NCBI RefSeq assembly: GCF_020097815.1
Contig: NZ_CP083663.1
Location: forward strand, 310,001 to 374,000
Length of the DNA stretch: 64,000 nucleotides
Reading direction: 5' to 3'
From: Haloprofundus salinisoli
GTDB lineage: Archaea > Halobacteriota > Halobacteria > Halobacteriales > Haloferacaceae
Shown here: one piece after another, positions 3,099 through 26,042 of the stretch
Layout: each line of letters starts with the position of its first letter
Position numbering within the stretch: the stretch's first letter is position 1
The notes under the pieces: generated by a model
Database searches by the model: none
What the model was told of the DNA's origin: nothing
What the model saw: only the letters and a program-made list of their open reading frames with translations
Translations under genes and position numbers: made by a program

Positions 3099-4523
3099 TC
3101 AGACGAGCGTCGTCTCGTCGAGGGTAGCGAGGTCACCGCCCTCCGCTCGCTCGACGGCGTCGTAGGCGTCGACGAATCCGGCACCGGCGCTGGCCGGTTC
3201 GTAACTCGACAGCGCGTCCTCGGCTTCGGCTTCGACCGTCGCCAGCAGTTCGCGAGCCGTGGGTCGACTCCCCTGCGCGGCGACGTGGGCGTCGACGATC
3301 AAGGCGGCGATACCCGAGACGTGCGGACAGGCCATGCTCGTCCCGCTGATGCTCGCGTAGTACGGTTCGCCGTCGTCGCCAGTCGTCGCCCCCAGCGGGT
3401 CGTCCGGCGACATCGTACTCACGATTTCGTTTCCGGGCGCGGCGACGCCGGTCCGGTAGACGCCGAGCGGTCCGGACGCCTCGCCGGTCTCGTAGTACGT
3501 TTCGAGGTTCGACAGCGCCGTCTCGCGGTCGTAGTTGCTGCCGTCGTTACGGCCGCGCGAGGAGAAGTCGGTGACTTCCTTCTGGTCGTTCGTCGCGGCG
3601 ACGCCGAGGACGTGAGGCGCTTTCGCGTAGTCGTTCAGCGTGTCGTAGTCGGGACCGTCGTTGCTGGCGGCGAACACCGGGAGGATGTCCGCTTGGTAGG
3701 CGTACCACGACGCGACGTTGAGCGTCGCGTCCGGGTCGAAGTCGTCGGTGCTCGACACGCCGTAGGAGTTCGAGACGACCTGATACGTCGAGCCGTCGCC
3801 GTTTTCGAGCATGTGGTCGAACGCCGCGGCGGCTTTCAGCACCGAAACCCCGGCGCTGGTCGAGTAGGAGGTGAGCGTCGCCTCCGGCGCCATCCCGCGG
3901 TACTGGCCGTCGCTGGCGCTGCCGTCGCCGGCGACGGTGCCCGAGCAGTGGGTCCCGTGACCGATCTCGTCGGTGTCGACGCCGCCGACCTCGGGCCACA
4001 GCGTCTCGGTACCGGTGAGTTCCAGCGGGTCCCCGGCCCACTGGTAGTTGGCGTCGAGATTCGCCGCCAGGTCGGGGTGGTCGCCGTCGATGCCGCTGTC
4101 GATGACGACGACGTGGGCGTTCTCGCCGGCGTAGCCCAACCCGCGCTGTACCTCGGCCGCCCGGGTCACCTCGCGGCCGTCGTCGTTGTAGTAGTCGAGC
4201 TCGCGGTTAGCCTCGACGTAGCGAACCTCGTCCCATTCGGCGACGGTCTCTATCTGTGTTCCCGTCAGTCGGCTAAAACCGACTGGAAGCACCGAGAACT
4301 CGTAGTAGCCGTCGACGAGGTCCAGCGACTCCAAGAGGCCGACGTCGTCGTTCGAGTCGAAGACGACGAGCACCTCCTGGAGCGTGTCGCTCGCCGTGTC
4401 CAGGGTGTCGTCGATGAGCGAGGTGAGCGACCCCGCCCGCGCCCGACCCGCGAAGGGAAGCAGCGATGCCGCGCCGGTCAGTTTCAGTACGGTTCGTCTT
4501 TCGAGCGTCGGTGTTTCGTCCAT
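3099..4523 (-). CDS. Tat-exported halolysin-like subtilisin (S8) protease
   Basis: 474 aa. Tat signal with Arg9-Arg10 (ERRTVLKLTG) and an Ala-rich h-region ending near residue 30. An inhibitor_I9-like propeptide follows (about 45-110, ending in the EVRYVEANRELDYY region). The catalytic domain has Asp142 (VIDSGIDGDHPDL), His189 (IGHGTHCSG), oxyanion Asn288 (AASNDG) and Ser396 (SGTSMACPHVSG). The length and order match secreted haloarchaeal proteases, but the Cys-containing C-terminal extension of classical halolysins is short or absent. It lies in the same direction as the larger S8 protease 205 bp downstream and has its own upstream palindrome, so the two are probably co-regulated but separately transcribed. 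Confidence 0.95.
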   Translation of the reverse strand: MDETPTLERRTVLKLTGAASLLPFAGRARAGSLTSLIDDTLDTASDTLQEVLVVFDSNDDVGLLESLDLVDGYYEFSVLPVGFSRLTGTQIETVAEWDEVRYVEANRELDYYNDDGREVTRAAEVQRGLGYAGENAHVVVIDSGIDGDHPDLAANLDANYQWAGDPLELTGTETLWPEVGGVDTDEIGHGTHCSGTVAGDGSASDGQYRGMAPEATLTSYSTSAGVSVLKAAAAFDHMLENGDGSTYQVVSNSYGVSSTDDFDPDATLNVASWYAYQADILPVFAASNDGPDYDTLNDYAKAPHVLGVAATNDQKEVTDFSSRGRNDGSNYDRETALSNLETYYETGEASGPLGVYRTGVAAPGNEIVSTMSPDDPLGATTGDDGEPYYASISGTSMACPHVSGIAALIVDAHVAAQGSRPTARELLATVEAEAEDALSSYEPASAGAGFVDAYDAVERAEGGDLATLDETTLV

Positions 4524-25285: not shown

Positions 25286-25432
25286 CGACTCGGCACCGAA
25301 CTGGCGAACAGACGGTGAATCGAAGCGCACGACGGGTCACCGTACTCCCGCCTCGGCCGCCGTGGGCGACTCGTCAGGCTACTCGGGAGGGTGGCCGCCC
25401 CTTCTCTCAAAAACGTTCGCGGACGTTCGCGG

Positions 25433-25534
25433 TCAGCAGCAACAGCAGGGGGAACAGCACGGCGAGCAGGTGTATCGGTTTTCGGTGGTCGATTCGGCAC
25501 AGCAACCGGCTTCGGCACAGTCGTTCGATGGCAC
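25433..25534 (-). CDS. 33-aa cysteine-rich microprotein (ten Cys), GTG start
   Basis: Minus strand from GTG at 25534 to TGA at 25433. Ten of 33 residues are Cys: one at 6, a pair at 11-12, one at 23, a pair at 26-27 and a run of four at 30-33, giving the C-terminal CSPCCSPCCCC. A TATA box (CCAATATATGG, about 25558-25568) is centred about 27 nt upstream, so the GTG would be the first codon of a leaderless mRNA. An in-frame ATG at 25561 lies inside the TATA box and is unlikely. Divergent from an HxlR-type regulator with its own Cys cluster. The composition suggests a thiolate metal binder or redox buffer, like a minimal metallothionein; no family is recognised. Confidence 0.6.
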   Translation of the reverse strand: MPSNDCAEAGCCAESTTENRYTCSPCCSPCCCC

Positions 25535-25649
25535 GAGTAGTACTACGCCCGCCGCCGCCATATATTGGACAGTTTAGTGATATAAAGGAGCTTTCCGCGC
25601 GGAAACCCGCCGGCTACGTTTACCCGCCGTCGGTGCGTACCGGACCCCA
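25535..25649. promoter_or_regulatory. Divergent promoter region, Cys-rich microprotein / HxlR regulator
   Basis: 115 bp. The minus-strand TATA CCAATATATGG lies at about 25558-25568. The plus strand has GATATAAAGG at about 25578-25587 and ACGTTTAC at about 25614-25621, the latter about 30 nt before the regulator's ATG at 25650. The closeness of the two promoters makes cross-regulation by the HxlR protein plausible. Confidence 0.5.
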
Positions 25650-26042
25650 ATGACGGACGCGAACGGCGAAGACTGGCAGACGCTCTGGCATCGACTCCAC
25701 GAGACGCTCGGCGGGAAGTGGGCGTTCCACGTGCTCCGGTTACTCTCCGAACGGGACGCCGGATTCAACGAGATGCGCCGCGAACTCGACGGCGTGACGG
25801 CGAAGACGCTCTCGAAACGACTCGGGGAGCTCCGCTGCCACGGCCTCGTCAGTCGGAGCGTCGAGGCGACGTCGCCGCCGCGGACGCGCTACGCGCTGAC
25901 GCCGGAAGGAGAGCGGTTCGTCTCCGTGCTTCGAGACGTAGAGTCGCTGGTATCGGTCGCCGACTGCGGATGCGGTCGGGAGTGCGAAGTGCTCACCGTC
26001 GACGCCGACGCGACGGCGACAGTCTGCACTGAGGGATGCTAA
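25650..26042 (+). CDS. HxlR/MarR-type winged-helix regulator with C-terminal Cys cluster
   Basis: 130 aa. The core is a classic HxlR domain: LGGKWAFHVLRLLSERDAGFNEMRRELDGVTAKTLSKRLGELRCHGLVSRSVEATSPPRTRYALTPEGERF. After it comes a tail that family members usually lack, VADCGCGRECEV...CTEGC, with five Cys in the last 30 residues. HxlR proteins often sense thiol stress or electrophiles through Cys; this tail could bind metal or form disulfides. It converges with the DUF35 gene across one base and is divergent from the Cys-rich microprotein, which is the likely target. Confidence 0.88.
   Translation: MTDANGEDWQTLWHRLHETLGGKWAFHVLRLLSERDAGFNEMRRELDGVTAKTLSKRLGELRCHGLVSRSVEATSPPRTRYALTPEGERFVSVLRDVESLVSVADCGCGRECEVLTVDADATATVCTEGC

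Follow-up and report, generated by a model that had tools for sequence, protein, structure and literature searches.

The two divergent genes in positions 25433–26042 of the window (the whole stretch of 64,000 nucleotides which we have analysed, part of a haloarchaeal genome of 3.4 Mb) appear to form a two-gene stress unit. In the reading which we favour, and which we hold to be rather probable, a soft-metal(loid) sensor of the HxlR family drives a leaderless, metallothionein-like thiol peptide. Probably it is an undescribed detoxification unit against arsenic-like or other thiol-seeking poisons. An earlier note on this DNA had proposed that a thiol-rich regulator and a thiol-rich effector belong together: this part has gained strong support from conservation, joint loss, operator drift and partner replacement. 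The ligands which it gave as examples (Cu, Zn, Hg, reactive sulfur) have received no specific support: arsenic genes stand out as the clearest functional neighbours, and they are found beside sister types of the unit and not beside the peptide type.

The micropeptide gene

The micropeptide gene is found on the minus strand, in positions 25433–25534. It starts with GTG at 25534, ends with TGA and codes for 33 amino acids (VPSNDCAEAGCCAESTTENRYTCSPCCSPCCCC), ten of them Cys, with a CCSPCC motif and a terminal CCCC. The frame had been described in the earlier note; on derivation anew its coordinates, its start and its ten Cys are exactly the same. There is also an in-frame ATG at 25561, which would give a version of 42 amino acids. 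It lies inside the TATA box and it is absent from a third species of the genus, which only has GTG; we have rejected it, and for these reasons a leaderless GTG start is likely.

The TATA box of the peptide (AATATA, positions 25560–25566 on the minus strand, with the spurious ATG in 25561–25559) has its centre 29 bp before the GTG. A TATA-like box centred at −28 to −32 from the peptide start is present in 18 of the 21 peptide loci described below. Spacings of 28–32 bp from box to start are those of leaderless haloarchaeal transcripts, so that the peptide transcript is likely to be leaderless as well. The transcription start had been placed on the GTG in the earlier note, and the position of the box and its constancy among loci support this.

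Purifying selection acts on the Cys frame. The dN/dS values are 0.11–0.21 for those pairs of homologous peptides which have diverged further; the closest pair (L038/L039) has 0.64, based on few changes and therefore the least informative, and one pair (L044/L045) is saturated. Cys codons of the homologues show silent TGC/TGT changes. The other reading frames over the gene have stops in sister species; a Leu-rich frame which overlaps it (25407–25505) was rejected on account of stops in a sister species. The earlier note had made its proposal depend on conservation of the Cys positions: between genera the CC pairs and the Cys-rich end are kept rather than a sequence, and the positions other than Cys vary greatly.

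The composition is metallothionein-like: a small protein with roughly 15–35% Cys (here 10 in 33 amino acids) and CC/CxC patterns. The window peptide has no match in Pfam (E up to 1) or NCBIfam (E up to 10), and the other peptides tried have no significant match to Pfam or NCBIfam families, metallothioneins included. Rfam and terminator scans gave no match either. One peptide matched a streptolysin S-type model with E=3.1, which we consider noise; a RiPP precursor was rejected, since no modification enzyme recurs beside the unit. The peptide of locus L057 is peculiar: it has 61 amino acids with 17 Cys, in glycine-rich repeats which each end in CC, apparently an internal duplication.

The HxlR regulator

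The divergent gene (positions 25650–26042, plus strand) codes for a winged-helix regulator of the HxlR family with 130 amino acids. It matches PF01638 with E=1.2e-16 and 60.8 bits over residues 20–100, for a cut-off of 20.8; the ArsR/SmtB model NF033788 gives 15.8 bits for a cut-off of 55, which does not place the protein in that family. Two features distinguish it. One is Cys63 (codon in 25836–25838, in the motif ELRCHG), at the predicted end of the recognition helix. The other is a C-terminal tail (positions 25965–26039, residues 106–130, CGCGRECEVLTVDADATATVCTEGC), in which the five Cys noticed in the earlier note are indeed present: C106, C108, C112, C126 and C130. The tail and Cys63 are a candidate ligand site. 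Both are conserved within the clade of Cys-tailed HxlR proteins: Cys63 is found in 38 of 40 Cys-tailed relatives and in none of the seven tailless ones. A single-sequence structure model has a mean pLDDT of 70, with about 50 in the tail. The solved relatives matched include QsrR, YodB and YybR, and the NCBIfam models RrpA/RrpB, with names related to redox, show weak matches below the cut-off. A broad contig search for HxlR relatives gave only HxlR proteins of Bacteria.

Tailless HxlR proteins divergent from protoglobin genes are found in four genomes (L079, L081, L082 and L083), where they form a separate clade. They are possibly a gas- or haem-related regulator pair.

The proposed operator

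Between the two genes there is an inverted repeat in positions 25590–25607, GCTTTC-CGCGCG-GAAACC, with a family consensus GGTTTC-N6-GAAACC. Its centre lies 51 bp away from the start of HxlR and 64 bp away from that of the peptide. The first distance is 48–51 bp in 17 of the 21 peptide loci, the second mostly 64–71 bp. In most loci the observed repeat scores are seldom or not at all reached by dinucleotide shuffles of the intergenic sequence; two loci (L043 and L076) have no clear copy. Some variants are found at the same position: ACTGTC-N6-GACAGT in L064 and L066, GCTGTC-N6-GACAGT in L077 and ACTATC-N6-GAAAGT in L069. The regulators of L064, L066 and L077 have a diverged DNA-binding domain: as clades with a diverged domain carry an altered repeat in the same place, domain and repeat change together.

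The HxlR gene has its own TATA-like box, TTTACC, in positions 25619–25624 of the plus strand, centred at −28. The repeat is found upstream of both TATA boxes, a position which leans towards activation rather than occlusion as the sign of regulation. Since the operator is shared, autoregulation of the HxlR gene is implied.

The perfect operator GGTTTC-N6-GAAACY is present 0–2 times per genome in the six genomes searched; in genome G358 the second perfect site is inside a transposon-type gene. With a loose pattern we found tens of matches in the window genome and in two sisters, among which no clear second target was identified. A match in positions 3832–3849 of the window is inside a subtilisin-like gene, and a wide regulon was rejected for these genomes.

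Recurrence and joint loss in haloarchaea

Of the 391 genomes sampled from the class, 45 contain relatives of the HxlR protein. We fetched about 16 kb around each of them, 747 kb in total, and searched for short frames in which Cys numbers 8 or more and makes up no less than 18% of the residues. Such frames are divergent from HxlR relatives in 21 loci, and only two are found elsewhere in the 747 kb. The 21 loci correspond to 21 genomes from 11 genera and five families; their peptides have 27–89 amino acids and 8–18 Cys. The distance from start codon to start codon is 114–122 bp in 17 of them. The synteny in other haloarchaea for which the earlier note had asked is present in 20 further genomes.

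Within the genus the regulator is missing from two of the five species. One of them (G002) has a scar: what is left of the 3′ half of the peptide gene, in degraded form, is joined directly to the last part of the HxlR tail; as one runs into the other, a single deletion removed most of both genes. This scar, a fusion of the peptide remnant with the tail coding region, is found in L104:1186-1500. In the other species (G004) nothing remains between the flanking genes. Peptide and regulator have been lost as a pair.

Other partners of the regulator

The clade of Cys-tailed HxlR proteins has three types of partner: 21 peptides, 14 divergent DUF2703 genes and four upstream Rdx genes. DUF2703 proteins (PF10865, thioredoxin-like) have C-terminal ends such as CGCGC, CDC, CC or similar. 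The Rdx proteins, which are SelW-like, end in GCC and have the HxlR gene further downstream. The operator of the peptide type also precedes most DUF2703 genes and, in the Rdx type, the Rdx gene. DUF2703 is above the cut-off in 17 of the 391 haloarchaeal genomes, and 14 copies adjoin a Cys-tailed HxlR gene, while one further copy is that of genome G286, described next; in the genomes of the peptide type none is above the cut-off. Genome G286 has a Cys-tailed HxlR gene with no adjacent partner, and in this genome the perfect repeat is found in exactly two places. One copy precedes the lone HxlR gene; the other stands 68 bp upstream of the start of an unlinked DUF2703 gene, which codes for a protein with SCC at its C-terminal end.

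On the regulator tree the five partner labels require 8 changes, and the peptide label at least three; there were therefore several events in which an effector was lost or gave way to another. Judged from gene order, shared operators and this tree, the effector of the HxlR/operator module is replaceable.

A conserved protein of 90 amino acids with a CEHCGC-type motif is found between Rdx and HxlR in loci L046–L049. It is absent from the plasmid gene table and has no Pfam match.

Arsenic and metal genes in the neighbourhood

Arsenic islands carried by plasmids of Halorubrum, Halosimplex and Halorussus hold the Rdx type. These islands have the gene order acr3-arsR-arsD-arsA-hcsL-hcsS, and some have arsM. 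Linkage to ars genes is present in three of the four Rdx-type loci and in four of the 14 DUF2703-type loci. The remaining Rdx-type plasmid, from Halorubrum BOL3-1, has no ars genes nearby and has a cation diffusion facilitator gene nearby. The DUF2703-type loci L062, L070, L072 and L037 adjoin arsR, arsC-like or arsP-like genes; at DUF2703 loci the names arsP and arsR were given from similarity and typical motifs rather than from a family scan. In Rhodococcus a DUF2703 gene is induced by As(V) (PMC6514093).

Two further arrangements were observed. In L128:365-2394 there is a row formed by an arsP-like permease, DUF2703 and arsR, with no HxlR gene nearby; this row ties DUF2703 to arsenic independently of HxlR. 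In L084:5362-5909, after arsA, the genes hcsL and hcsS overlap, and both products end in CC at the stop; the same islands are found in L085, L086 and L087. NCBI names these proteins "halo-CC-star", and we did not find the corresponding paper in the open-access literature.

There are no ars genes within 8 kb of any locus of the peptide type, and Acr3 above the cut-off is missing in 14 of the 21 genomes of this type, including the window genome. Arsenite methyltransferase-like genes (E<1e-20) are present in 11 of the 24 genomes searched; the window genome has a weaker match, with 41% identity. A cation diffusion facilitator gene is found 53–77 bp downstream of the peptide gene in L050, L054, L057 and L061, and it neighbours the unit in L051, L078 and L047, an adjacency which would fit a divalent metal.

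The ligand of the unit is likely to be a soft metal(loid), with arsenite as the leading candidate. We infer it from the company of the sister types, as there is no ars gene beside the peptide loci and most of their genomes have no Acr3; for the same reason the peptide branch may have a ligand other than arsenic. The window peptide does have a CCxxCC pattern (CCSPCC), a pattern which binds biarsenical dyes.

Discussion

The mechanism which we propose is built on sequence comparisons. The HxlR protein, probably as a dimer, would bind the inverted repeat which lies between the promoters of both genes. A soft metal(loid), with arsenite or antimonite as the first candidate, would bridge Cys63 and the Cys of the tail, so that the contact with DNA or with a transcription factor would be altered. 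The change in transcription would lead to the leaderless peptide mRNA, and the 33 amino acid peptide may then trap the ion or hand it over through its CC pairs (CCSPCC, CCCC), in the manner of a metallothionein. In other haloarchaea the same module of regulator and operator would drive the Cys-tailed effectors DUF2703 or Rdx. On a wider scale, we give about even chances to the view that these proteins are a new family of HxlR metal(loid) sensors with a regulon of nearly one target and an effector slot which is interchangeable among CC peptide, DUF2703 and Rdx.

Other explanations differ mainly in the nature of the signal. It could be redox or electrophile stress (disulfide, quinone or reactive sulfur), with the HxlR tail as a thiol switch and the peptide as a thiol buffer. 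The solved relatives QsrR, YodB and YybR are thiol-switch regulators, the subthreshold matches to RrpA/RrpB point in the same direction, and the partners are thioredoxin-fold or CxxC proteins. However, the bacterial thiol-switch HxlR proteins have one or two Cys near the N-terminus, whereas the Cys here form a tail of five; moreover, poly-Cys effectors typically go with soft-metal binding and arsenic genes remain the clearest functional neighbours. We consider this explanation possible, but unlikely. Slightly less likely still, the peptide branch could have as its ligand a metal, divalent or monovalent (Zn, Cd, Cu(I) or Hg), with arsenic sensing limited to the Rdx and DUF2703 branches. The lack of Acr3 in most peptide-type genomes would agree with it, as would the cation diffusion facilitator gene directly downstream in four loci and adjoining the unit in three more. 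However, at peptide loci this adjacency is limited to one family and may be a single inherited arrangement, and the operator is common to all three branches, which suggests one kind of signal.

The function of the short frame itself may also be questioned. Polycysteine attenuators are on record from mycobacteria, where short leaderless frames contain Cys codons in runs (PMC9031893). The frame in the window is likewise leaderless and short, with terminal runs of Cys codons, and could be such a cysteine-responsive attenuator rather than a functional peptide. However, the next gene beyond its stop is convergent in the window (DUF7547) and in 13 of the 21 loci, so that there is nothing to attenuate; the Cys runs are spread over the whole frame and full Cys-tailed proteins replace the peptide in sister loci. 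For lack of a co-directional downstream gene we have rejected this explanation, which is very improbable. Even less credit is due to a chance open reading frame, any transcript being non-coding or antisense. Short frames do arise in GC-rich DNA, and the overlapping Leu-rich frame is also readable in this species; nevertheless the enrichment of 21 to 2 at this position and the purifying selection led us to reject it, and the stops in other frames and the lack of an Rfam match also speak against it.

In its layout the unit resembles smtA/smtB of cyanobacteria, in which a metallothionein gene is divergent from an ArsR/SmtB repressor: in both cases a small Cys-rich protein is divergent from a dedicated regulator, with an intergenic operator region of about 100 bp. 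The parts differ: the regulator here is HxlR and not ArsR/SmtB, the peptide matches no metallothionein family, and the unit is archaeal, leaderless and has a replaceable effector. The regulators YodB, HypR/YybR and QsrR share the DNA-binding fold, as judged by sequence, but the proteins described here differ by a Cys which ends the recognition helix and by a Cys tail of 25 residues, both missing in the tailless haloarchaeal relatives.

There are also similarities with other small Cys proteins. HcsL and HcsS are small haloarchaeal proteins which end in CC at the stop and share islands with the Rdx branch, but they have little Cys besides the terminal CC, and the peptides tried against their NCBI models gave no match with E up to 10. 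ArsD senses As(III)/Sb(III) with the help of vicinal Cys pairs (PMC4562236 and references therein); it is a folded protein of about 110 amino acids with no evident similarity to the peptide. Some of the C(P)XCG zinc-finger micro-proteins of Haloferax volcanii bind zinc (PMC11241148); they are also haloarchaeal, Cys-rich and below 70 amino acids, but our peptides carry CC, CCC and CCCC runs in place of two CPxCG knuckles. The attenuators of mycobacteria share the leaderless frame and the Cys codon runs, but the product here is replaced by proteins elsewhere. We have found no description of the HxlR/Cys-peptide unit in the open-access literature, which was the scope of our search.

If our interpretation is true, the CC peptides would correspond, in Archaea, to metallothioneins and phytochelatins, and haloarchaea would have a dedicated system of the metallothionein kind, controlled by a sensor of a new class. 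A role is also suggested for the archaeal DUF2703 and Cys-tailed Rdx proteins, which share the operator. With apparently one or two targets and an operator which can be recognised, a small reporter would allow direct tests of sensor, ligand and effector. The replacement of one effector by another would be a natural test of which chemistry matters.
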